Source: Eubacteriales bacterium
Lineage (GTDB): Bacteria; Bacillota; Clostridia; Lachnospirales; Lachnospiraceae
NCBI GenBank assembly: GCA_030536575.1
Contig: JAUNPS010000014.1
Coordinates: 45,014 to 109,013 of the forward strand
Direction: 5' to 3'
Length of the DNA stretch: 64,000 nt
Both the position numbers and the translations under genes were made by a program. The notes under the pieces were generated by a model that saw nothing but the letters and a program-made list of their open reading frames with translations, made no database searches and was not told the DNA's origin. This document shows positions 1,841-63,877 of the stretch, in pieces (within the stretch, counting starts at the first letter, position 1; each line of letters opens with the position of its first letter).

Positions 1841-4383
1841 TTGCGGCGAGATTGAAAACAGAGTATTTGATAAATCCAATCGGGATTGACGCAGCGACGC
1901 CCCGGCTGTTTTGGAACTGTCAGGATGGCAGGAACCAGACCGCTTACCAGATTATAGCCGTTACCGATGACGGCAAGGTTCTCTGGGACAGCGAAAGGGT
2001 GGAAAGCAGCTCTATGCAGGCAGCATGGGGAGGCTTGCCGATAAAGCCCAAAACGAAGGTACTGTGGAAAATCCGGCTTTGGGATGAAAACAATACACCC
2101 GGCGACTGGCAGGAAGCCAGTTTTGAAACCGGAATCGACGCATGGACGGCGAAGTGGATCACCGGGAATTATAAGGTAAACAAAAAGAAACGGTATCCCG
2201 TCGACTGTTTCCGCAGGCAATTCACGGTGCCCGACAGGAAAAAGGCAAGACTGTATATCACGGCCTGCGGCTTGTATGAAGCGAAGCTGAATGGCACGCG
2301 GGTGGGAAATTTCATTTTGGCTCCGGGTATTACCGACTACCGCAAGCGCGTGCAATATCAGACCTATGACGTGACAGAACTATTATGCAAAGGGAAAAAC
2401 ACCCTGACCGTGCAGCTTGCCGATGGTTGGTACAGGGGGAGCTGCGGAGCATGGGCGCTGAAAAATCAATATGGTACGGAAACGAAGCTGTTGGCACAGC
2501 TTGAGATTACTCATGCGGATGGTTCTGTCCAGGTGATCGGCACGGATGAAAACTGGGATTGGAGCAACGATGGCCCGATTCGTTTTGCCGACAATAAAGA
2601 CGGGGAGCGATACGACGCCAACGCCGTTCCCGGATACTGCGGTAAGGCAAAAGTGACGGCCCACCCGGTTACGCCCGCCGCTTCCAATAACGTGCCGGTG
2701 ACCGAACACGAGCACCTTTCTGCCCGGCTCCTGAGAACGCCCGCCGGAAAAACGGTTCTGGATTTTGGGCAGAACATTGCGGGGTATGTGTCCTTCTCCC
2801 TAATGGCAGGGAGCGGGCAGACGATTCGTCTCCGTTTCGGAGAACTGCTGGATGAACAGGGAGAGTTTACCCAGAAAAATATTCAGTGCTCCAATAAAAA
2901 GATCACGACGCCTTTGCAGCAGGTGATTTATACCTGTAAGGAGGGGCTGAACGAGTATCAGACGACCTTCGCCATTTTCGGATTCCAGTATGTGCTGGTA
3001 GAAACGGATGTGGAAATCTGCCCGGCGGACTTTACCGCCATTGCAGTTTATTCGGACATGGAACGTACCGGCTGGTTTGAAAGCTCCAATGCGCTTCTGA
3101 ACCGGTTTGTGGAGAATACCGTTTGGAGCGCTAAAAATAACCACGCCGACCTGCCTACCGACTGCCCCACAAGAGAACGCCATGGATGGAGCGGCGACGC
3201 CCAGATTTTTTGTCCCACGGCGAGCTTTCTGTTCGATTACAGGAGTTTTGCCAGGAAATATCTCAATGACCTTTACGACTGGCAAAGGCCGGATGGAAAG
3301 CTGCCCCAGATTGCCCCGGAGGGAGGGACGGACGCTTATATGAAATTCATGGATGGCAGCGTGGGCTGGGCGGATGCCGGGGTGCTGATGCCATACGCTC
3401 TGTGGAAACAGTATGGAGATACGGAAATCCTGAGAAGGTTTCTTCCCGGAATGCGCAGGTATGCCAGGTTTATGCAGAACCGCTGCGGGAAATGGTATCC
3501 TGGGGCGAAACGGACGGGACTGAAGGGGGAGGAAAGGGCCTACCTTTCCAACTACGGACAAGCCTATGGCGAATGGGCGGAGCCGGATGAGGTGCATCAC
3601 ATGACCTGGAAGGACTGCGCAGTCCCCCATCCGGAGGTGGCTACTGCCTATACCGCCCATGTCATGGATTGCATGGCGGAAATCGAGAGAGCGCTTGGAA
3701 ATGTGAAAGCAGCGGAGGAGTACCGTGCTTTTGCAGACGGATGCAGGAAATCCTATCAGGCATTGCGGAAAACGCAGGCGTATTGTTTGGATACGGACCG
3801 GCAGGCCTGGCTGGTACGGCCTTTGGCTTTTGGGCTGCTGGATGAGGAACAGAAGGAATTTGCAGAAAAAAGGCTGCTGGAAGCACTGGAACACTACGGC
3901 TGGCGGATTGGTACGGGCTTTTTGTCCACACCGCTGATCCTGGATGTGCTGGCGGAGATCGATTTGGATGCAGCTTACCGGCTGCTGGAGAATGAAGAAA
4001 TGCCGGGCTGGCTGTTCATGCCGAAAAACGGGGCGACTACGGTGTGGGAAGCATGGGAAGGCAGCTCTGCCCCAAACGGCGGGATTGCTTCCCTGGATCA
4101 TTACTCCAAAGGCGCGGTCTGCCGGTGGCTTTTTGATACCATGTGCGGTATCCGGGTGGATGGCGAGAACCATTTTGTGATTGCGCCCCGTCCCGGCGGT
4201 CATTTCACCCACGCAAGGGCAGTCTATGTAAGCGTTTACGGAAAGGTGGAAAGCGGATGGGAAAAGGAGAACAATGGAGCCGTCTACAGGGTCGTAATTC
4301 CGGCGAACTGTACCGCCGCGCTGCTGCTGCCGGGCAGGGAAGCGATTTCCTTAAGCACGGGGATCTATACATTCAGGGGGTAA
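1837..4383 (+). CDS. Alpha-L-rhamnosidase, GH78
   Basis: An 848-residue cytoplasmic enzyme (no signal peptide) releasing terminal alpha-L-rhamnose by inversion. The N-terminal half holds beta-sandwich domains including the GLYEAKLNG and [12 protein letters not shown] motifs. The (alpha/alpha)6 catalytic domain carries [10 protein letters not shown] around D442-E447 (general acid region) and [11 protein letters not shown] with E738 as likely base, matching GH78 enzymes such as BsRhaB. The usual RDER is RER here, so the first acidic residue of that pair is lost, while D442, E447 and D454 are kept. Coupled to the symporter upstream and 3 bases from the GH3 gene downstream. Confidence 0.9.
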
Positions 4384-4386
4384 GAA

Positions 4387-6723
4387 ATGGAGATTGAAAA
4401 GATTTTGAAGCAGATGACCCTGGAGGATAAGATCGCCCTTTGTTCCGGGGCTTCCTTCTGGGAGACAAAAAACTATGAGAAATATGGAATCCCGTCGATG
4501 TTTCTGTGCGACGGCCCCCACGGCCTGCGCAAGCAGGAGCGGGAAGACGGCGCGGATATGTTAGGCGTGGGCGGTTCCAGGCCTTCCACCTGTTTTCCGG
4601 CAGAAGTTACCACTGCCGGGAGCTGGGACATAGAGCTGCTGAAAGAAATCGGAGCAGCCATTGGTGAAGAAGCGAAGGAGCAGGGCGTTGGCCTTGTCCT
4701 TGGGCCAGGCGCAAACATAAAGAGGAATCCTCTGTGCGGGCGCAATTTTGAGTATTTCAGTGAGGACCCGTATCTGGCAGGAAAGCTGGCCGCGGGTTTT
4801 ATCCGGGGAGCAGAGGGTCAGGGAGTGGGAACCAGCCTGAAACATTTTGCCGCAAATTCTCAGGAAAAATGCCGTTTCCATTCGGACAGCGTTATGGACG
4901 GGCGCACCTTGCGGGAGCTTTACTTACCTGCTTTTGAGATTGCTGTGAAGGAGGGAAAACCGTCTTCTGTCATGTGCGCCTATCCGAAGCTGAATGGAAT
5001 CCATTGCAGCGATCATCAGGAACTGTTGACCGGTATTCTCCGGGATGAATGGGGGTTTGACGGCATGGTGGTTACGGATTGGGGGGCAATGAACGACCGG
5101 ATTGAAGGATTCCGGGCCGGGTGTGACCTGAACATGCCCGGCGGCAGCGATTACATGGAGAAAGCGGTGCGGCAGGCAGTACGGGACGGCACGCTTCCGG
5201 AAAGCTGTATCGACGCTTCTGCCCGCCGTGTGCTGAAGCTGGTATTTCGTGCCGCTGAGACTTTGCGGGAAAAATCGGAATGCGATTACGATGCGCACCA
5301 TGCGCTGGCCTGCAGGGCGGCGGAGCAGGGAGCGGTGCTGCTGAAAAACGATGAAAAGATTCTGCCTCTGAAGCAAGGCGCGAAGATTGCGGTAATTGGA
5401 GAGATGGCGAAGAACATGCGTTTTCAAGGGGCAGGTTCCAGCCACATCAATCCGATCCGGATCAGTCAGCCGCTGGATTTTCTACCTGGCGTATCTTATG
5501 CCTCCGGCTGCGATGACAGGGGCAATACTACGGATGCGCTGCTTGCCGAGGCGGCGGAGGCAGCGAAAAACGCAGAAATTGCCGTGGTGTTTGCCGGGCT
5601 GCCAGACCGGTATGAATCGGAGGGATTTGACCGGGAAAGTATGCAGATGCCGGAAGGGCATATCCGTATGATTGAGACGGCAGCAGATGCGAATCCTAAT
5701 ACCGTGGTGGTTCTGCTGTGCGGCTGCGTGGTGGAATGCCCCTGGGCGGATCAGGTGAAAGCCATTCTTTACATGGGGCTGCCAGGTCAGGCAGGCGGCG
5801 AGGCTATTGCCAATCTGCTCTATGGGAAAGCGAATCCCTGCGGCAAAACAGGGGAGAGCTGGCCCATTGCCTACGGGGATGTCCCTTCTTCGGAGATTTA
5901 CGGAAAGACAAAGGATGCGTTGTATCAGGAAGGAATCTATGTGGGTTATCGGTATTATGACAAAGCGGGAGCGGCGGTTCGCTGGCCTTTTGGTTACGGA
6001 TTGAGTTATACCAGCTTTGCTTATTCTGATTTGGAGATCTGTGGAAATACGGTTTCGGTGACAGTGAAAAATACAGGGAAATATTTTGGCGCTGAGATTA
6101 TTCAGCTTTATCTTGCGCCGCCGCAGGAGGGTCTGCATCGTCCGGTACGGGAAATGAAGGGGTTTCGGAAGGTATTTTTGCAGCCAGGAGAGAGCCGGAG
6201 GGCTGCTTTTGAGCTGGATGACCGCGCGTTTGCTCTGTGGAAAGACGGATGGAAGGTTTCTGAGGGCAGTTATACGATCCATGTTGGCGGGTTGTCTGCG
6301 GTGATTGAAAAGAAGGGGGAGGAAATTCCTGCTCCGGCGTGGCAGGAGGGAAGCTGGTATGAAACCTGTCAGGGTAAGCCTTCTAAAAAGCAATGGGAGG
6401 CTATGCTGGGCAGAGCCTATGTACCGCCAAAGCTGCGCAAAGGTCAGTTTACGATGGACAATACCGTGGAAGAAATGAAGGAGTTTTCTTTCATAATGAA
6501 GATCATGTATAAGGCGGTGGAGAAAACGGTTGCCAGGGGATTTGGCGGGAAGGCCGATTATGAGAACCCGGAATTCCGGATGATGATGGCTTCCTCGGCC
6601 GGGGCGCCCCTGCGCAGTATGCAGATTTCCGGGGGCATGAAAGGCGGCGTGATGACAGGGCTTCTGGAAATGGCAAATGGGCATTTCCTGAGGGGAATCG
6701 GAAAAATCCTGTATGAGAAATAG
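4387..6723 (+). CDS. Beta-glucosidase-type glycoside hydrolase, GH3
   Basis: A 778-residue cytoplasmic GH3 enzyme. Catalytic nucleophile is D231 in VVTDWGAMND; the second domain has ESEGFDRE with E412 as likely acid/base; KHF and RNFEYFSEDP motifs lie between. A fibronectin III-like domain follows (about 575-645). The last 110 or so residues form an extra helical tail with a Met/Gly-rich stretch, of a kind I recall from clostridial GH3 proteins. It starts 3 bases after the rhamnosidase stop and should finish de-rhamnosylated glucosides. Beta-xylosidase or another specificity cannot be excluded. Confidence 0.88.
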   Translation: MEIEKILKQMTLEDKIALCSGASFWETKNYEKYGIPSMFLCDGPHGLRKQEREDGADMLGVGGSRPSTCFPAEVTTAGSWDIELLKEIGAAIGEEAKEQGVGLVLGPGANIKRNPLCGRNFEYFSEDPYLAGKLAAGFIRGAEGQGVGTSLKHFAANSQEKCRFHSDSVMDGRTLRELYLPAFEIAVKEGKPSSVMCAYPKLNGIHCSDHQELLTGILRDEWGFDGMVVTDWGAMNDRIEGFRAGCDLNMPGGSDYMEKAVRQAVRDGTLPESCIDASARRVLKLVFRAAETLREKSECDYDAHHALACRAAEQGAVLLKNDEKILPLKQGAKIAVIGEMAKNMRFQGAGSSHINPIRISQPLDFLPGVSYASGCDDRGNTTDALLAEAAEAAKNAEIAVVFAGLPDRYESEGFDRESMQMPEGHIRMIETAADANPNTVVVLLCGCVVECPWADQVKAILYMGLPGQAGGEAIANLLYGKANPCGKTGESWPIAYGDVPSSEIYGKTKDALYQEGIYVGYRYYDKAGAAVRWPFGYGLSYTSFAYSDLEICGNTVSVTVKNTGKYFGAEIIQLYLAPPQEGLHRPVREMKGFRKVFLQPGESRRAAFELDDRAFALWKDGWKVSEGSYTIHVGGLSAVIEKKGEEIPAPAWQEGSWYETCQGKPSKKQWEAMLGRAYVPPKLRKGQFTMDNTVEEMKEFSFIMKIMYKAVEKTVARGFGGKADYENPEFRMMMASSAGAPLRSMQISGGMKGGVMTGLLEMANGHFLRGIGKILYEK

Positions 6724-8443: not shown

Positions 8444-10162
8444 GTGGAAACCGGAAAAAAGAAACTTCCGATAGGGATTGAAAATTTTCAAGAGATACAG
8501 ACAGAAGATTTTTATTATGTGGATAAGACAAACCTCATTAAAGAGCTTTTGACAGGGTGGGCGAAGGTGAATCTTTTTACACGTCCGAGGCGTTTCGGCA
8601 AGTCTCTGAATATGAACATGCTGAAGTGCTTTTTTGAAATTGGCGGCGATAGAACATTGTTTGAAGGGCTGAAGATTTCGCGGGAAAAGGAACTGTGTGA
8701 AAAGTATATGGGACAGTTCCCGGTCATATCCATCAGTCTGAAAAGCGTAGAGGGAAGGAATTATCAGCAGGCATGCGCGGCGTTGCGGAGAGTGGTCGGA
8801 AATGAAGCGCTCCGGTTTTACTACTTGCTAGAGAGCGATAAACTGCTTTCCAGTGAAAAAGAAATGTACAGTGCCCTGACCAGTGTGAAAGACGGAGCGT
8901 TTGCGATGGCTGACGAAACCCTTGTGGACAGCCTGCGCACATTATCCCAGCTTCTGGAAAAGCATTATGGCCAGAAGGTAATTCTGCTCATTGACGAGTA
9001 TGATGTCCCACTGGATAAGTCGTTCCAGGCAGGTTACTATGATGAGATGGTTGCCCTCATCCGGGGGCTGCTTGGCAATGCCTTAAAAACGAATGACTAT
9101 CTGCAGTTCGCCGTCCTTACGGGATGCCTCCGCATTTCAAAGGAAAGCATTTTTACAGGACTGAATAACCTCAAGGTTTTGTCGGTCGCAGAAGTACAGT
9201 TTGACGAAGCTTTCGGTTTTACAGACGAGGAAGTGCGGGAAATTCTGGAATATTATGGCCTTTCCGATCATTATGAAGAGATGAAGGAATGGTATGACGG
9301 CTACCAGTTCGGAAACGTGGAAGTATACTGCCCCTGGGATGTGATCAATTACTGTGATACGCTGCGGGCAGACCCAGACGCACAGCCTAGGAATTACTGG
9401 ATTAATACCAGCAGCAATGAAGTAGTCAGGCGGTTCATCCGGAAATCGGACAACGCATCCGTAAGACGTGAGATCGAAAAACTGGTTGCGGGTGAGGTGA
9501 TCACAAAGGAAATCCATCAGGAACTGACCTACAAAGACATGTATGATTCCATCGACAATCTGTGGAGTGTCCTGTTCACGACGGGCTACCTTACCCAGCG
9601 TGGAAAGCCGGAAGGAGACCGTTTTAGGCTGGCAATTCCAAACATGGAAATCCGGAAAATATTTACCACCCAGATCATGGAATTTTTTAAGGAGAACGTA
9701 CCGAAGAATGGGGAAGCCCTGAAAGAATTTTGTGACGCGCTGATAAATGGGAATGCAGAAGGTGTGGAAAAACGGCTTGGCGAATATCTGAAGCGGACAA
9801 TCAGTATCCGGGACACTTTCGTAAAAAAACAGATGAAAGAAAACTTTTTCCACGGCATACTGCTAGGAATTTTAGGCTTCGAAGATTCCTGGAGCGTCTC
9901 GTCCAATAAAGAATCCGGAGACGGCTACAGCGATATTTTGGTAGAAACAGACGAGGGGGAAACCGGCATCATACTGGAAATAAAATATGCAGAGGATGGA
10001 AAACTGGATGCAGCCTGCCGGGAAGCCTTGGAGCAGATTGAGCGGAACCGGTATGAAGAGGTTCTTCTTGATGAAGGGGTTGACCATATTTTAAAATATG
10101 GGATTGCCTTTTATAAGAAGAGGTGTCGCGTGATGTTTGCTGGCGACGCGAGTCCTCAATGA
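8444..10162 (+). CDS. AAA-ATPase-like / PD-(D/E)XK nuclease-domain protein, copy 1
   Basis: A 572-residue protein of the AAA-ATPase_like plus PDDEXK_9 architecture, common in gut Firmicutes and Bacteroidetes and of unproven function. Near the N-terminus TRPRRFGKSLNM is the Walker A variant; ILLIDEYDVPLDK near 180-192 is Walker B; TGCLRISKESIFTGLNN is the conserved sensor-like segment. The C-terminal domain has SDILVET then GIILEIKY (nuclease D and ExK). The GTG start aligns with the ATG of the paralogue at 19620 and has GGAAGGAG before it. From about 9246 to 10122 the DNA is essentially identical to copy 2. Likely a selfish or conflict-related gene; this is inference. Confidence 0.8.
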   Translation: METGKKKLPIGIENFQEIQTEDFYYVDKTNLIKELLTGWAKVNLFTRPRRFGKSLNMNMLKCFFEIGGDRTLFEGLKISREKELCEKYMGQFPVISISLKSVEGRNYQQACAALRRVVGNEALRFYYLLESDKLLSSEKEMYSALTSVKDGAFAMADETLVDSLRTLSQLLEKHYGQKVILLIDEYDVPLDKSFQAGYYDEMVALIRGLLGNALKTNDYLQFAVLTGCLRISKESIFTGLNNLKVLSVAEVQFDEAFGFTDEEVREILEYYGLSDHYEEMKEWYDGYQFGNVEVYCPWDVINYCDTLRADPDAQPRNYWINTSSNEVVRRFIRKSDNASVRREIEKLVAGEVITKEIHQELTYKDMYDSIDNLWSVLFTTGYLTQRGKPEGDRFRLAIPNMEIRKIFTTQIMEFFKENVPKNGEALKEFCDALINGNAEGVEKRLGEYLKRTISIRDTFVKKQMKENFFHGILLGILGFEDSWSVSSNKESGDGYSDILVETDEGETGIILEIKYAEDGKLDAACREALEQIERNRYEEVLLDEGVDHILKYGIAFYKKRCRVMFAGDASPQ

Positions 10163-19290: not shown

Positions 19291-19480
19291 GTGCGCCCAG
19301 CTAAGGGATTGAAATTCGGTGGGTGAAAGCCCCACGGTGTAAGGTATAAGCCATACCGCACCAAGCGAGCCCTGGGTGGACAGCAGAGATGCTGCTCACT
19401 AAGCGTAGACAGCGAGATTACAGGGAACAACTGTAAAAGGAAGAGCCGTAAAAAAATACGGATTATCAGCATTGTCGGGA
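19291..19480 (+). mobile_element. Possible internally deleted group II intron remnant
   Basis: The stretch starts GTGCGCCCAG, the usual group II 5' boundary. It continues with GGGTGAAAGCCCC and CCAAGCGAGCCCTGG, arrangements recalled from domain I of bacterial group II introns. Near the other end GGAAGAGCCGTA with a TACGG partner resembles the start of domain V. No reverse-transcriptase reading frame remains. Recognition is from memory of the family, not a search. The right boundary is uncertain; homology to the nuclease-gene leader begins at about 19484. Confidence 0.45.
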
Positions 19481-19619: not shown

Positions 19620-21431
19620 ATGGGAACAGGAAAAAAGAGACCTCCGATCGGAATTGAGAATTTTGAAAAATTGCAGACAGAAGATTTTTATTATGTGGAT
19701 AAAACAAACCTCATTAAAGAACTTTTGACGGGGTGGGCAGAAGTGAATCTTTTTACACGCCCAAGGCGGTTTGGCAAGTCTTTGAATATGAATATGCTGA
19801 GGTGCTTCTTTGAAATTGGTTGCGATAAAACGCTGTTTGACGGGCTGAAGATCTCGCAGGAACAGGAGCTGTGCGAAATGTATATGGGGCAGTTCCCGGT
19901 CATATCCATCAGCCTGAAAAGCGTAGAAGGAAGGAATTATCAGCAGGCATGCGCAGCATTACGCTCTGTTATCGGGATAGAGGCAATGCGTTTCCACTTC
20001 CTGTCAGAAAGCGAAAGACTGTCTGCGGAAGAAAGGGCAATGTACGATCAGTTAATTCAGATTGGAAATGCGCAGAATGCCGTATTTGCAATGACAGATG
20101 CAGTTATGCTGACAAGCCTGAAGGTTCTTTCCCAACTTCTGGCAAAGCATTATGGTCGGAAGGTAATCCTTCTCATTGACGAGTATGATGTTCCATTGGA
20201 TAAGTCGTTCCAGGCAGGTTACTATGAGGAGATGGTTGCCCTCATCCGGGGGCTGCTTGGCAATGCCTTAAAAACGAATGACTATCTGCAGTTCGCCGTC
20301 CTTACGGGATGTCTGCATGTAGCACCATCGTCACTAGGCTCGAAAATACCTCGCCAAGTGAACGAGGTGGGCTTTCCTACTAAGCTCGAAAATACCTCGC
20401 TAAGTAGTCAATGCCAAAGCATTTTTATAGGACTGAACAACCTCAAGGTTTTGACGGTCGCAGAGATCCAGTTTGACGAAGCTTTCGGTTTTACGGACGG
20501 AGAAGTGCGGGAAATGCTGGAATATTATGGCCTTTCCGATCATTATGAAGAGATGAAGGAATGGTATGACGGCTACCAGTTCGGAAACGTGGAAGTATAC
20601 TGCCCCTGGGATGTGATCAATTACTGTGATACGCTGCGGGCAGACCCAGACGCACAGCCTAGGAATTACTGGATTAATACCAGCAGCAATGAAGTAGTCA
20701 GGCGGTTCATCCGGAAATCGGACAACGCATCCGTAAGACGTGAGATCGAAAAACTGGTTGCGGGTGAGGTGATCACAAAGGAAATCCATCAGGAACTGAC
20801 CTACAAAGACATGTATGATTCCATCGACAATCTGTGGAGTGTCCTGTTCACGACGGGCTACCTTACCCAGCGTGGAAAGCCGGAAGGAGACCGTTTTAGG
20901 CTGGCAATTCCAAACATGGAAATCCGGAAAATATTTACCACCCAGATCATGGAATTTTTTAAGGAGAACGTACCGAAGAATGGGGAAGCCCTGAAAGAAT
21001 TTTGTGACGCGCTGATAAATGGGAATGCAGAAGGTGTGGAAAAACGGCTTGGCGAATATCTGAAGCGGACAATCAGTATCCGGGACACTTTCGTAAAAAA
21101 ACAGATGAAAGAAAACTTTTTCCACGGCATACTGCTAGGAATTTTAGGCTTCGAAGATTCCTGGAGCGTCTCGTCCAATAAAGAATCCGGAGACGGCTAC
21201 AGCGATATTTTGGTAGAAACAGACGAGGGGGAAACCGGCATCATACTGGAAATAAAATATGCAGAGGATGGAAAACTGGATGCAGCCTGCCGGGAAGCCT
21301 TGGAGCAGATTGAGCGGAACCGGTATGAAGAGGTTCTTCTTGATGAAGGGGTTGACCATATTTTAAAATATGGGATTGCCTTTTATAAGAAGAGATGTCG
21401 TGTGATGTTTGTTGGCGATGCGAATCATTAA
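19620..21431 (+). CDS. AAA-ATPase-like / PD-(D/E)XK nuclease-domain protein, copy 2, with in-frame insertion
   Basis: 603 residues, same architecture as the gene at 8444: Walker A TRPRRFGKSLNM, Walker B ILLIDEYDVPLDK, C-terminal nuclease with SDILVET and ILEIKY. Relative to copy 1 it gains 29 residues between TGCL and SIF, replacing RISKE of the conserved sensor-like segment with a stretch encoded by two hairpin repeats (20332-20406). The frame is kept, but the conserved K-x-S is lost, so ATPase function may be damaged. The first 600 bases are diverged from copy 1 while the last about 875 are essentially identical, a sign of gene conversion or recent partial duplication. Confidence 0.8.
   Translation: MGTGKKRPPIGIENFEKLQTEDFYYVDKTNLIKELLTGWAEVNLFTRPRRFGKSLNMNMLRCFFEIGCDKTLFDGLKISQEQELCEMYMGQFPVISISLKSVEGRNYQQACAALRSVIGIEAMRFHFLSESERLSAEERAMYDQLIQIGNAQNAVFAMTDAVMLTSLKVLSQLLAKHYGRKVILLIDEYDVPLDKSFQAGYYEEMVALIRGLLGNALKTNDYLQFAVLTGCLHVAPSSLGSKIPRQVNEVGFPTKLENTSLSSQCQSIFIGLNNLKVLTVAEIQFDEAFGFTDGEVREMLEYYGLSDHYEEMKEWYDGYQFGNVEVYCPWDVINYCDTLRADPDAQPRNYWINTSSNEVVRRFIRKSDNASVRREIEKLVAGEVITKEIHQELTYKDMYDSIDNLWSVLFTTGYLTQRGKPEGDRFRLAIPNMEIRKIFTTQIMEFFKENVPKNGEALKEFCDALINGNAEGVEKRLGEYLKRTISIRDTFVKKQMKENFFHGILLGILGFEDSWSVSSNKESGDGYSDILVETDEGETGIILEIKYAEDGKLDAACREALEQIERNRYEEVLLDEGVDHILKYGIAFYKKRCRVMFVGDANH
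20332..20406. repeat. Two tandem 29-nt hairpin repeats inside the copy 2 coding region
   Basis: Unit A is 20332-20360 and unit B 20378-20406, 17 bases apart. Both follow the pattern YACTARGCTCG, AAAATAC, CTCGCYAAGTR. The four differences between units fall in paired positions and are compensatory: C-G versus T-A at the stem end and G-C versus A-T inside. Stem arms pair at 8 of 11 positions. Copy 1 of the gene lacks both. They behave like a palindromic element inserted in frame. Confidence 0.75.
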
Positions 21432-40144: not shown

Positions 40145-40527
40145 CGGCATTCACACCTACGCCAGCCTTTTGGTACGTCCAAGTCCATTATGTACAGCCG
40201 CCGGGAAGGCGGAAAGCTTGCGGGGACGTGTTTCGAGGGGCGGTTTTCACTGGAATCTCCGTTCCAGGCGGAGATGCAGGCGTGCCGTATACGGCAAGGA
40301 AGAATGTCGAAATCGCCTTTCTAAGACTTTCCGGTGAATCGGATACCATGCTCGCATGGCAAGGCGCATGAAATAAGAAGGCTCTCCTGAGCGTCTTAGT
40401 CGCAGTTAGGGGAAGTTTGACGATGACGTTGCCCCGTTCCCCGGAAGGTTTTCGACGGCACGGTGGTGTCCATCTAAGTCTACAGTGGTTAAAAAAATAG
40501 AAAAGCTGGCGTTGTGTGAATGGTAAT
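40145..40527 (+). mobile_element. MITE-like element, copy 1 (degenerate)
   Basis: A non-coding 383-base unit with imperfect terminal inverted repeats (ATTCACACCTACGCCAGC at 40149 against GCTGGCGTTGTGTGAAT at 40505). Its core matches the reverse complement of the 63587-63877 element in long blocks, for example the GGGAAGGCGGAAAGCTTGCG region at 40203, CTCCTGAGCG at 40384 and the run at 40401-40462. It carries about 90 bases absent from the other copy. No transposase is encoded, so movement would be in trans. Confidence 0.7.
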
Positions 40528-40558
40528 GGCTGCGCTCTACGGGGCGCGGCCTTTTTGG
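40528..40558 (+). terminator. Terminator of the nan-type operon
   Basis: GGCTGCGCTC, loop TACG, GGGCGCGGCC, then TTTTT. Ten pairs including two G-U. The left arm equals the putative target duplication of the miniature element, so the element seems to have inserted at this terminator and left it intact downstream. Confidence 0.75.
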
Positions 40559-40567
40559 CGCATTTTG

Positions 40568-40596
40568 TTGAAATTCCTCCCGGTTTATGCTACAGT
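40568..40596 (+). promoter_or_regulatory. Promoter of the IbrA-IbrB operon
   Basis: TTGAAA at 40568-40573, a 17-base spacer and TACAGT at 40591-40596. The start point would be near 40603, directly before a dyad. Confidence 0.65.
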
Positions 40597-40606
40597 AATT
40601 GGGAAA

Positions 40607-40632
40607 CCAATTTCCAGAAAATGGAAATTTGG
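40607..40632. promoter_or_regulatory. Dyad in the leader of the IbrA-like gene (operator candidate)
   Basis: CCAATTTCCA, then GAAAA, then TGGAAATTTGG: a near-perfect inverted repeat just after the predicted transcription start and before the ribosome site. It could bind a repressor, possibly an operon product; no protein is assigned. Confidence 0.5.
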
Positions 40633-40650
40633 GAAAAAGGGAGGGATTTT

Positions 40651-41982
40651 ATGAAACGGGAATATCTGGAACAGAACGTCTACGAAGCATTCCAGGACCG
40701 CCTAGGCCTGATCTTCGAAGAATTCGACAACATCTACGTCTCCTTCTCCGGCGGAAAAGACAGCGGCCTTCTCTTAAACATGGTTCTGGACTACCGGAAA
40801 AAGTACTTTCCACAGAAAACCATCGGCGTCTTCCACCAGGACTTCGAAGCCCAGTACACCGTGACCACCGAATACGTAGAGCGCACCTTCGAGCGCATCA
40901 AAGACGACGTGGAACCCTACTGGGTCTGCCTCCCAATGGCCACCCGGACGGCCCTAAGCAGCTACGAAATGTACTGGTATCCCTGGGACGACACGAAAGA
41001 AGAACTCTGGATTCGGAAAATGCCGGACAAAGAATACGTCATCAACCTGAATAACAACCCCATGACCACCTACCGCTACCGCATGCACCAGGAAGACCTG
41101 GCCAAACAATTCGGCCGCTGGTATCGCCTCTCCCACGGGAACGGAAAAACCGTCTGCCTCCTGGGAATGCGCGCCGACGAATCCCTACAGCGTTACAGCG
41201 GTTTTGTCAATAAAAAGTACGGCTACAAAGGCGAATGCTGGATCAGCAAGCAGTTCAAAGACGTCTGGTGCGCCTCCCCTCTGTACGACTGGACGTCGGA
41301 AGACATCTGGCATGCCAATTATCTGTTTAACTATGATTACAATCGGTTATACGACTTGTACTATATGGCCGGGCTGAAAGTCTCGCAGATGCGCGTGGCC
41401 TCCCCGTTTAACGACTATTCAAAAGACGCCCTGAACCTGTACCGGGTCATCGATCCGGAAATCTGGGTAAAACTGGTAGGCCGCGTCCAGGGCGCGAACT
41501 TCGCCAGCATTTACGGCCGGACAAAAGCCATGGGCTACCGGAACATCACCCTTCCCGAAGGCCATACCTGGAAGTCCTACACGATGTTCCTTCTGGACAC
41601 CCTTCCGGCCAGGCTTCGGAACAACTACGCGAAAAAGTTCAATACCTCCATCGAATTCTGGCACAAAACCGGAGGCGGCCTGGACGAAGAAACCATTGCC
41701 GAACTCGTGGATCACGGCTACAAAATCCGCCGCAACGGCGTTTCGAACTACACCCTGAGCAAAAAATCCAGAGTGGTCTTTCTGGAAAAAATCCCGGATC
41801 ACACGGACGATATCAAGTCCTCCAAAGATGTGCCGAGCTGGAAGCGGATGTGCTACTGCATTCTGAAAAACGACCACATCTGCCGGTTCATGGGCTTCGG
41901 GATGACCAGAGAGCAGCAGCGGCGGATCGACCTGATCAAAGAAAAGTACAAGAGTGTGGAGGAGATGGATTATGGAGTATAA
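40651..41982 (+). CDS. IbrA-like PAPS-reductase-family protein (N-type ATP pyrophosphatase, DUF3440)
   Basis: 443 residues, soluble. The PP-loop SGGKDS at residues 33-38 binds ATP; the domain (about 20-260) is that of phosphoadenosine phosphosulfate reductases and of DndC. The C-terminal part (about 280-443, with YKIRRNGVSNYTLSKKSR and KNDHICRFMGFG) is the DUF3440-type extension found in IbrA, a regulator of Ig-binding protein genes in some E. coli. Genuine reductase CxxC features are not obvious. ATG 40651 has GGGAGG; longer starts would read through the promoter. Overlaps the ParB gene by 11 bases. Codons are rich in C endings, unlike the gene before it. A sulfur-transfer or adenylation role is inference. 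Confidence 0.82.
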   Translation: MKREYLEQNVYEAFQDRLGLIFEEFDNIYVSFSGGKDSGLLLNMVLDYRKKYFPQKTIGVFHQDFEAQYTVTTEYVERTFERIKDDVEPYWVCLPMATRTALSSYEMYWYPWDDTKEELWIRKMPDKEYVINLNNNPMTTYRYRMHQEDLAKQFGRWYRLSHGNGKTVCLLGMRADESLQRYSGFVNKKYGYKGECWISKQFKDVWCASPLYDWTSEDIWHANYLFNYDYNRLYDLYYMAGLKVSQMRVASPFNDYSKDALNLYRVIDPEIWVKLVGRVQGANFASIYGRTKAMGYRNITLPEGHTWKSYTMFLLDTLPARLRNNYAKKFNTSIEFWHKTGGGLDEETIAELVDHGYKIRRNGVSNYTLSKKSRVVFLEKIPDHTDDIKSSKDVPSWKRMCYCILKNDHICRFMGFGMTREQQRRIDLIKEKYKSVEEMDYGV

Positions 41983-42517
41983 AAGCCCGGTTTACCATGT
42001 GATACCGGTTCCGATCGAAAAGATCAAACCAAACACCTACAATCCCAATGCGGTGGCCCCGCCGGAGATGCGCCTGCTCTATGACAGCATTAAGGCGGAC
42101 GGCTACACGATGCCGATTGTCTGTTATTATGATAAAGCGGAGGATACCTACATCATTGTAGACGGATTCCACCGCTACCGGATCATGCTGGAGCATGAAG
42201 ACATTTACGAGCGGGAGAAGGGGATGCTCCCGGTCTCGGTCATCAATAAACCTTTGGATCAGCGGATGGCCAGCACCATCCGGCACAACCGGGCCAGAGG
42301 AACCCACGACGTGGATCTGATGAGCAACATTGTGAAAGAACTCCACGACCTGGGACGCTCGGACGCCTGGATTTCGAAGCATCTTGGGATGGATCGGGAC
42401 GAGATCCTGCGGCTGAAGCAGATCACCGGGCTGGCGGAGCTGTTTAAGGACGTGAAGTTCGGAAAAGCCTGGCGTCCGGTGGAAGAACCCGGAGATGAGG
42501 AAGAACTAAATGAATAA
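41972..42517 (+). CDS. IbrB-like ParB/sulfiredoxin-fold protein
   Basis: 181 residues. The ParB N-domain shows KIKPNTYNPN near residue 20, VDGFHRYR at 63-70 (the nucleotide-binding GxxR-like loop) and RHNRARG at 104-110. A HTH-like segment follows (about 129-155, DAWISKHLGMDRDEILRLKQ), then a short acidic tail. It has the length and pairing expected of IbrB. ATG 41972, with GTGGAGG before it, overlaps the IbrA-like gene. It may bind DNA or CTP/ATP and guide its partner; function is not established. Confidence 0.82.
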   Translation: MEYKSPVYHVIPVPIEKIKPNTYNPNAVAPPEMRLLYDSIKADGYTMPIVCYYDKAEDTYIIVDGFHRYRIMLEHEDIYEREKGMLPVSVINKPLDQRMASTIRHNRARGTHDVDLMSNIVKELHDLGRSDAWISKHLGMDRDEILRLKQITGLAELFKDVKFGKAWRPVEEPGDEEELNE

Positions 42518-42530
42518 AGGAGGAAGAACT

Positions 42531-43676
42531 ATGCGTTATCGTGCACTGGGAAATACCGGGCTGAAGGTCAGCGAAATCGGCCTGGGCGGCGAATGGCTGG
42601 AGCGCCATAACACCGAAGAAGTAAAGGAAGTCATCGACTGTTGCGCGGCGAACGGGATCAATATCCTGGACTGCTGGATGTCTGAGCCGAATGTGCGCTC
42701 GAACATCGGAAAGGCGATCAAGGGCAGCCGGGAAAAGTGGATTATCCAGGGGCACATCGGGTCGACCTGGCAGAACGGCCAGTATGTGCGCACCCGTGAC
42801 CTGGAAAAGGTGAAGGAGGCTTTCGAAGACTTGCTGACCCGGATGCAGACGGATTACATCGACCTTGGCATGATCCATTTTGTGGATGAAGCGGCGGAAT
42901 TCGACCGGATCATGAACGGGGAGTTCCTGGCTTACGTCAAGGGGCTGAAGGAAAAAGGCGTGATCCGCCACATTGGCATGAGCACCCATAATCCGGCGGT
43001 GGGGAAGCTGGCGGCTTTAAGCGGAGAGATCGAAATGATTCTCTTCAGCGTGAACCCGGCCTTCGACCTGCTTCCGGCAAGCGAGGACATGAACCGCTAT
43101 TTTGCGGAGGATTCCTACGAGGCGCAGCTTGGCGGCATTGCGCCGGAGCGGGAAGAGCTGTACCGGATCTGCGAGCAGAGAGGCGTCGGGATCACGGTCA
43201 TGAAGGGATATGCCGGAGGACGGCTGTTTTCCGCGGAGACTTCGCCCTTTGGAGTGGCGCTGACGCCGGTACAGTGCCTGCACTACGCGCTGACGCGGCC
43301 CGCGGTGGCGAGTATCATGGTGGGTTATGATACGCCTGCCCATGTGGAGGCGGCTGTGGCCTACGAGACGGCTTCCGAAGAGGAGAAGGACTATGCCAGC
43401 GTCCTGGCCGGTGCGCCGCGCCACGCTTATTCCGGGCAATGTACCTACTGCGGCCACTGTGCGCCATGTCCGCAGAAGATTGACATCGCGATGGTGAATA
43501 AGCTGTATGACCTGGCGGTGATGCAGGAGGAGGTTCCGGCGACGGTGGCGGCGCATTATGCGCAGCTTGCGGCGAATGCGAAGGACTGTATCGGATGCGG
43601 GGGATGCGAGAAGCGCTGTCCATTTGGGGTTCCGGTGGTGGAGCGGATGGAGAAGGCGAAAAAGCTGTTTGTGTAA
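42531..43676 (+). CDS. Aldo/keto-reductase-like protein with two [4Fe-4S] clusters
   Basis: 381 residues. Residues 1-290 are an AKR barrel (RALGNTGLKVSEIGLGGEW; GVIRHIGMSTH). Of the usual tetrad, D47 and H116 are present, but the tyrosine and lysine positions appear replaced (ILDCWMSEPN, IIQGHIG), so normal NADPH-dependent carbonyl reduction is doubtful. Two ferredoxin motifs follow: C304, C307, C310, C313 and C353, C356, C359, C363. Starts 13 bases after the ParB gene with AAAGGAGG, and is followed by a terminator, making it the third gene of the IbrA-IbrB operon. Likely an electron carrier or radical-type enzyme; inference. Confidence 0.82.
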   Translation: MRYRALGNTGLKVSEIGLGGEWLERHNTEEVKEVIDCCAANGINILDCWMSEPNVRSNIGKAIKGSREKWIIQGHIGSTWQNGQYVRTRDLEKVKEAFEDLLTRMQTDYIDLGMIHFVDEAAEFDRIMNGEFLAYVKGLKEKGVIRHIGMSTHNPAVGKLAALSGEIEMILFSVNPAFDLLPASEDMNRYFAEDSYEAQLGGIAPEREELYRICEQRGVGITVMKGYAGGRLFSAETSPFGVALTPVQCLHYALTRPAVASIMVGYDTPAHVEAAVAYETASEEEKDYASVLAGAPRHAYSGQCTYCGHCAPCPQKIDIAMVNKLYDLAVMQEEVPATVAAHYAQLAANAKDCIGCGGCEKRCPFGVPVVERMEKAKKLFV

Positions 43677-43686
43677 ATTGCAGCAG

Positions 43687-43716
43687 AGGCTCTGGTTTTC
43701 GAACCAGGGCCTTTTG
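43687..43716 (+). terminator. Terminator of the IbrA-IbrB-AKR operon
   Basis: AGGCTCTGGTT, loop TTCG, AACCAGGGCCT, then TTTTG: an 11-bp stem with one G-U and a stable tetraloop. Confidence 0.85.
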
Positions 43717-63586: not shown

Positions 63587-63877
63587 GTTACAGTTCACAC
63601 ATCGCCAGCTTTCCCGTTTTTAACCACTGGAGCATAACCGGACGTTACCGTGCCGTCGAAAACCTTCCAGGGAACGGGGCAACGTCATCGTCAAACTTCC
63701 CCTAACTGCGACTAAGCCGCTCAGGAGAGCATTCGCGCCTAAGTCTTAGTAAGGGGCGATTTCGACTCTTCCTAAGTGCGCCCCTCGAAACACGTCCCCG
63801 TAAGCTTTCCGCCTTCCCGGTAACTGTCTATAGATGACTGGGAAATGCCAGGAGGCTGGCGATGTGTGAACTGTAAC
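63587..63877 (-). mobile_element. MITE-like element, copy 2 (intact ends)
   Basis: A 291-base non-coding unit with perfect 23-base terminal inverted repeats at 63587-63609 and 63855-63877 (GTTACAGTTCACACATCGCC and continuing). The reverse complement shares most of its length with the copy at 40145-40527. No transposase or sizeable gene lies inside. A target duplication is not evident here. Confidence 0.75.

Follow-up and report, generated by a model that had tools for sequence, protein, structure and literature searches.

Does the ibrA-ibrB gene pair in a 64,000-nucleotide stretch of DNA from a gut bacterium of the Lachnospiraceae (hereafter the window, to whose positions all coordinates refer) form one system with the iron-sulfur (Fe-S) aldo/keto-reductase (AKR)-like gene that follows it, or is the pair a unit of its own, and on what might it act? 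An earlier note on this DNA had read the three genes as an operon for sulfur or redox chemistry. Our analysis suggests that the locus is the known ibrAB pair, correctly named as a DUF3440 PP-loop protein with a ParB-like protein directly downstream, next to an apparent chance neighbour, and that its two products probably work jointly on DNA. The reading we favour, with a probability of roughly 0.4, takes ibrAB alone as the functional unit, an adenylating pair that would mark DNA or a nucleotide, and the AKR-like gene as a bystander.

To define the unit we compared the best 80 of 466 relatives in named genomes (genome loci) and the best 80 of 551 viral loci; because only the best 80 were taken from each, both sets lean to close relatives. 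At 79 of the 80 genome loci ibrB lay within 0.5 kb after ibrA, the remaining locus ending with ibrA. In 75 of the viral loci it lay downstream, at most 1.5 kb away, and in 3 it lay upstream; two contigs ended too early to show it. The two window genes overlap by 11 bases, an overlap that recurred at 67 of the 74 genome loci with both starts placed by a script. The first genes downstream, compared at 75 genome loci, spanned 100 Pfam families (25 of them listed in our tally), the commonest with 4 members. Thus, ibrAB is a two-gene unit with mostly differing neighbours. A hidden third gene common to the genome loci was considered and rejected, since the neighbours mostly differ (upstream genes were not scanned).

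The AKR-like gene stood behind ibrAB at none of the 80 named-genome loci and at none of the 80 viral loci, of which 68 and 63 (together 131 of 160) offered at least 3 kb behind ibrA; the sole AKR-like match across the 160, of 22%, lay upstream, in L145. Among 295 genomes of the same order, IbrA was matched in 18, several of the matches being weak, and the AKR-like protein at E <= 1e-60 in 70. In six genomes with ibrA and a 68-84% AKR orthologue, the two genes occupied separate contigs (G283, whose ibrA is broken; G063, G042, G053 and G008; and G159, where a contig end cuts ibrA), and the genus-mate G295 had the AKR-like gene (72%, at the DNA level) and no ibrA match. The window's own source genome, 4.8 Mb in 100 contigs, holds a single DUF3440 match. 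Because downstream genes are so varied, the AKR-like gene of the window is one of many differing neighbours and looks like a chance one. The earlier note had made it the third partner, a proposal that by its own account would fail if the gene were rarely beside ibrAB elsewhere; at 0 of 160 loci, the gene is not recurrent behind the pair, and we reject the three-gene system.

Loci with different neighbours share, 5' of ibrA, the pattern TTGAAt...TGTGnTAAATTA, followed directly by TTTCCA-N5-TGGAAA or by a direct form, TGGWAA-N4-6-TGGWAA. We counted these in 77 upstream regions, comprising the window and 76 of the 80 genome loci (the rest had no 130 bases or no script-placed start), taking TTWCCA-N5-TGGHAA as the inverted form and using shuffles that preserve 2-base blocks, not full dinucleotide content. 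The inverted form occurred in 21 regions, the direct form in 24 and either in 44, against a mean of 0.06 over 200 shuffles; the related promoter pattern occurred in 40, against a shuffled mean of 0.3. Moreover, the exact TTWCCA-N5-TGGWAA was found in the 80 genome loci at 18 sites within 130 bases 5' of ibrA and nowhere else in 1,148,989 bases. The upstream sequences, alike partly by descent, show a unit that moves together with its control region.

IbrA matched PAPS_reduct (1.5e-10; 41.8 bits against a Pfam cut-off of 22.5), DUF3440 (5.7e-88; 293.9 bits against 25) and, nearly full-length, phrog_2302 (1e-99). Its best fold matches were FAD synthase, CysD and PAPS reductase, and it has a P-x2-DW-x3-D-x-W stretch in common with FAD synthase. 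The PP-loop set was invariant among 8 diverse IbrA proteins, across which no cysteine was invariant. PAPS reductase (CysH) carries a catalytic cysteine near its C-terminus in an ECG motif, and no such motif occurs in the window IbrA. The earlier suggestions of sulfur chemistry and of likeness to DndC found no support: IbrA scored 23.6 bits in the DndC test, far under the NCBIfam equivalog cut-off of 290.4, and its PADLOC DndC match was weak, at 27 bits. With that score and the lack of an invariant cysteine, phosphorothioation by ibrAB was rejected; as for the DndC partners dndA, dndD and dndE, the genes around the window pair were read as open reading frames only.

IbrB scored 22.4 bits for ParB_N, under the Pfam cut-off of 26.3, and matched phrog_2159 at 7.4e-81 over nearly its full length. 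Its predicted model (pLDDT, the predicted local distance difference test, 81.4; pTM, the predicted template-modelling score, 0.64) matched the folds of KorB, ParB and Noc, followed by sulfiredoxin and free serine kinase. The helix-turn-helix (HTH) part fitted the KorB DNA-binding domain with a root-mean-square deviation (rmsd) of 1.2 A over 57 residues, so that the model combines a ParB N domain with an HTH fold. Residues invariant in 7 diverse rows include N21, NPN 24-26, G44-T46-P48, DG-HR 64-68, RHN 104-106, ARG 108-110 and H112. The nucleotide motif of the ParB/KorB CTP switch is GERR; IbrB does not have it, DGFHR aligning with the AGERR of Noc. IbrB was nearer than IbrA to the window copy in all 78 viral loci compared, and by this sequence comparison could be the partner in contact with an invariant target.

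Viral loci add further genes to the pair. A helicase-like open reading frame (ORF), so labelled from the annotation of phage counterparts and not from a profile scan, lay at most 6 kb away in 49 of 80 viral and in 0 of 80 genome loci, and phage neighbours of the pair include helicase, methyltransferase and terminase genes. An ectoine-synthase-family cupin accompanied the pair in 24 of the 80 viral loci (L187, L197, L194, L193, L195, L198, L203, L206 and 16 others), 19 times as a stand-alone protein and 5 times as an IbrB fusion, and at none of the 80 genome loci; the phage loci L230 and L231 likewise carried an ectoine-synthase-like cupin with ibrAB. Where it was not fused to IbrB, the cupin was encoded between the two genes of the pair. 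The three stand-alone cupins and one fusion scanned matched PF06339 at 1e-32 or better, and in 19 rows E57 and Y85 were invariant and H93 was kept in at least 90%. Mapped on a tree of IbrA with 68 viral rows, of which 21 bear it, the cupin takes 2 changes and so reflects one or two old events, retained through long divergence, instead of many independent ones. A GNAT label put on the tree gave 3 changes and is not used here, because part of its rows were guesses and some were missing from the tree. A tblastn search of 50,697 phage records found such a cupin in 5; four annotated records, from three phages, sit on a PAPS-reductase/ParB pair, and the fifth is without annotation. Pseudoalteromonas phage XCL1123 has the cupin, and in Lactobacillus phage CR28 none was seen next to the pair. 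The product name 'ectoine synthase/ParB multidomain protein' already appears in record KJ567043.1, and a 393-base gene that bears the label 'ectoine synthase/ParB' encodes the cupin only. Our literature search on the viral cupin-ibrAB link turned up no work that looked relevant from its listing, and the accessible part of a paper on 7-deazaguanine in phage DNA (PMC6884629) does not mention ParB.

Another 21 ORFs lay between viral ibrA and ibrB, among them 7 GNAT acetyltransferases (L173, L183, L185 and four others), 2 GIY-YIG proteins and 1 peroxiredoxin. The last, a 1-Cys peroxiredoxin gene, sits at 3868-4614 of a single viral contig, L200. One of the 21, all of them scanned, gave a DUF3440 match at 9.4e-7, and small ORFs near ibrB in L210, L212, L215 and L217 resemble by eye the C-terminal PSxKRxxxxILKND of IbrA.

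How might such a pair work? The pairing, the differing neighbours, the shared upstream signals, the predicted folds and the conserved sites are what we observed; a link of ibrAB to nucleic acid is plausible, and for its chemistry our best guess is adenylyl transfer at or close to DNA. IbrB would bind DNA through its HTH, switch with a nucleotide held in a DGFHR/RHNRARG pocket, and repress its own promoter through TTTCCA-N5-TGGAAA. IbrA would dock on IbrB and spend ATP to adenylate a group, through an AMP or activated intermediate as in FAD synthase and CysD and not a persulfide, and DNA or a nucleotide would thereby carry a mark. In phages the mark might protect or prepare phage DNA, and GNAT and ectoine-synthase-like enzymes could elaborate it; in hosts it might alter the expression of some genes, as is reported for Eib in Escherichia coli. 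A bolder version, which we regard as a long shot, puts ibrAB at the centre of a nucleic-acid hypermodification system not yet described: IbrB would clamp DNA, IbrA would adenylate a base or phosphate so that an amine or amino acid could attack it, and the viral GNAT and cupin, the latter sometimes fused to IbrB, would acetylate and ring-close the added group.

Several observations weigh against the adenylating pair. The fold cannot choose between enzymes, because PAPS reductase almost ties with FAD synthase, and in the closer part of the IbrA family C93 is kept in 67 of 69 and C411 in 65 of 69. Among close genome loci, IbrB was the nearer of the two proteins to the window copy in just 45 of 77. 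Neither operator form was present in 33 of the 77 upstream regions, the upstream likeness is partly descent because the loci are related, and binding of IbrB to the operator-like site is a guess. Second ibrA copies (64%; L031 8259-9620 and L032 3865-5379, in genomes G042 and G063) had no detectable ibrB beside them. The E. coli accounts of the pair, in the available parts of PMC7649339, concern regulation only. As a separate observation, in L035 (7489-8645, from G283) only fragments of ibrA are left, corresponding to residues 1-175 and about 401-443, beside an 87% ibrB match covering residues 1-172.

In one alternative account the pair is purely regulatory: IbrB would act as a transcription factor of the ParB/KorB type and IbrA as a co-activator that senses ATP, and nothing covalent would be made. 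The IbrB model does match KorB, a repressor, the pair bears an operator-like site, and ibrB is described, in the sections seen of PMC7649339 (citing Sandt 2002), as raising Eib expression in E. coli. However, the PP-loop set of IbrA is invariant, and phages attach enzyme genes (cupin, GNAT) to the pair. Nor is a regulon visible in the window's own genome, because the 4 exact operator-like sites besides that of ibrA all lie in ORFs; with 5 sites in total against 2 for a reversed control, we rejected an operator-site regulon there. We consider a purely regulatory pair unlikely, while placing it ahead of the other alternatives.

Also unlikely, and ranked just behind, is a role in small-molecule chemistry: the pair would build or alter an amino acid or a nucleotide through adenylation together with phosphorylation, IbrB acting in the manner of the serine kinases SerK/SbnI, and GNAT and ectoine-synthase-like enzymes would finish a product derived from a diamino acid. 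The close fit of the IbrB HTH to the KorB DNA-binding domain and the helicase, methyltransferase and terminase genes among the phage neighbours weigh against it. Least probable by far, and largely refuted, is the sulfur/redox module of three genes, with the Fe-S AKR donating electrons to IbrA. Given a gap of 13 bases after ibrB and its own ribosome-binding site, with no terminator-like site between the genes, the AKR-like gene may well be co-transcribed with ibrAB in this genome; yet it follows the pair at none of the 160 loci compared, its orthologues lie on other contigs of ibrA genomes or in an ibrA-less genus-mate, and IbrA has no invariant cysteine. The adenylating pair keeps our preference. 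The viral cupin and GNAT partners are the most useful new lead. A hypothesis that drops the AKR and takes in the operator-like site, a fold like that of adenylyltransferases and these viral partners makes direct tests possible: what target IbrB binds, what substrate IbrA adenylates, and whether the DNA of cupin-bearing phages contains an unusual nucleoside.

Features of the ibrAB locus, in window positions
Feature	Position	Strand
Promoter-like site of ibrAB, TTGAAA-17-TACAGT, extended -10	40568..40596	+
Operator-like inverted repeat TTTCCAGAAAATGGAAA, immediately 3' of the -10	40611..40627	.
ibrA, 443 amino acids, PP-loop (PAPS_reduct) + DUF3440	ATG 40651..TAA 41982	+
ibrB, 181 amino acids, ParB-like N domain + KorB-like HTH	ATG 41972..42517	+
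Fe-S AKR-like gene, 381 amino acids, judged outside the system	ATG 42531..43676	+
Terminator-like hairpin 3' of the AKR-like gene	43685..43714	+

ORF and domain reading bore out the genes, overlap, gap and coordinates of the earlier note. The promoter it placed 5' of ibrA is present as a site, with a related pattern upstream in relatives; as 9 such sites were observed against 3.1 expected, a single match is weak by itself. The hairpin it called a terminator is also present and by itself not above chance (7 terminator-like sites against 5.8 expected). The start of the AKR-like gene is backed by AGGAGG at 42518-42523. Its product matched Aldo_ket_red (9e-18) and a 4Fe-4S dicluster domain, an AKR-like barrel being followed by two C-terminal 4Fe-4S motifs. 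The catalytic tetrad of aldo/keto reductases is Asp-Tyr-Lys-His. Aligned with L-galactose dehydrogenase, the protein keeps Asp and His and has E52 for Tyr and H75 for Lys, H75 being invariant in 11 aligned rows; because the usual Tyr and Lys are missing by alignment, its own activity is unsure.

Elsewhere in the window, a non-coding, near-palindromic repeat occurs at 40150-40531 and about 63588-63870. An 8-copy consensus of the repeat has terminal inverted repeats GTTCACACnTCGCCAGC ... GCTGGCGAnGTGTGAAC, and 66 more matching pieces (73-100% identity) lie in the same genome, with no match in the four relatives searched; by sequence it looks like a family of miniature inverted-repeat transposable elements, directly 5' of the ibrA promoter. 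Two long ORFs (8444-10162 and 19620-21431) have C-terminal parts that are near-identical by eye, which suggests a recent duplication or gene conversion. Positions 19326-19447 (122 bases) match the group II intron family D1-D4-6 (RF02005, 57.8 bits).

The pair is common in phages, on plasmids and in E. coli, yet no biochemical activity is assigned to it in the parts of the literature examined. In tblastn searches, IbrA-like matches occurred in 217 phage records, 41 of them covering at least 80% of the query, and on plasmids in 592 records, 567 at that coverage; for IbrB the phage records numbered 220, with 212 at that coverage. A plasmid copy of the pair, run with megablast, hit 2120 of 5426 E. 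coli genomes, and in 2015 of these the match spanned at least 80% of that copy.

Among known systems, E. coli IbrA/IbrB and K-12 YbdN/YbdM are the same kinds of protein, encoded in the same order by genes whose ends overlap. YbdM is 50% identical to the window IbrB and YbdN 32% to the window IbrA, which is longer (443 against 406 amino acids). The K-12 ybdN-ybdM genes are repressed by CitR, according to the available sections of PMC9068703, and the TTTCCA-N5-TGGAAA site, seen in Lachnospiraceae-type loci, sets these apart from the E. coli pair. The phrog_2302/phrog_2159 families represent the viral kin; a helicase-like ORF, together with a cupin or GNAT, is a frequent addition at viral loci, and none of these adjoins the window pair. 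DndB/DndC also couple a ParB-superfamily protein with a PP-loop protein, as described in the accessible part of PMC10853773; IbrA differs from DndC in its score and in having no invariant cysteine. Compared with FAD synthase (FMN adenylyltransferase) and CysD, its best fold matches, IbrA has in addition a DUF3440 half and a ParB-like partner with a predicted DNA-binding fold. Finally, the IbrB model has the N domain and HTH of KorB, Noc and ParB, and differs from Noc in carrying DGFHR in place of AGERR within a protein of merely 181 amino acids.
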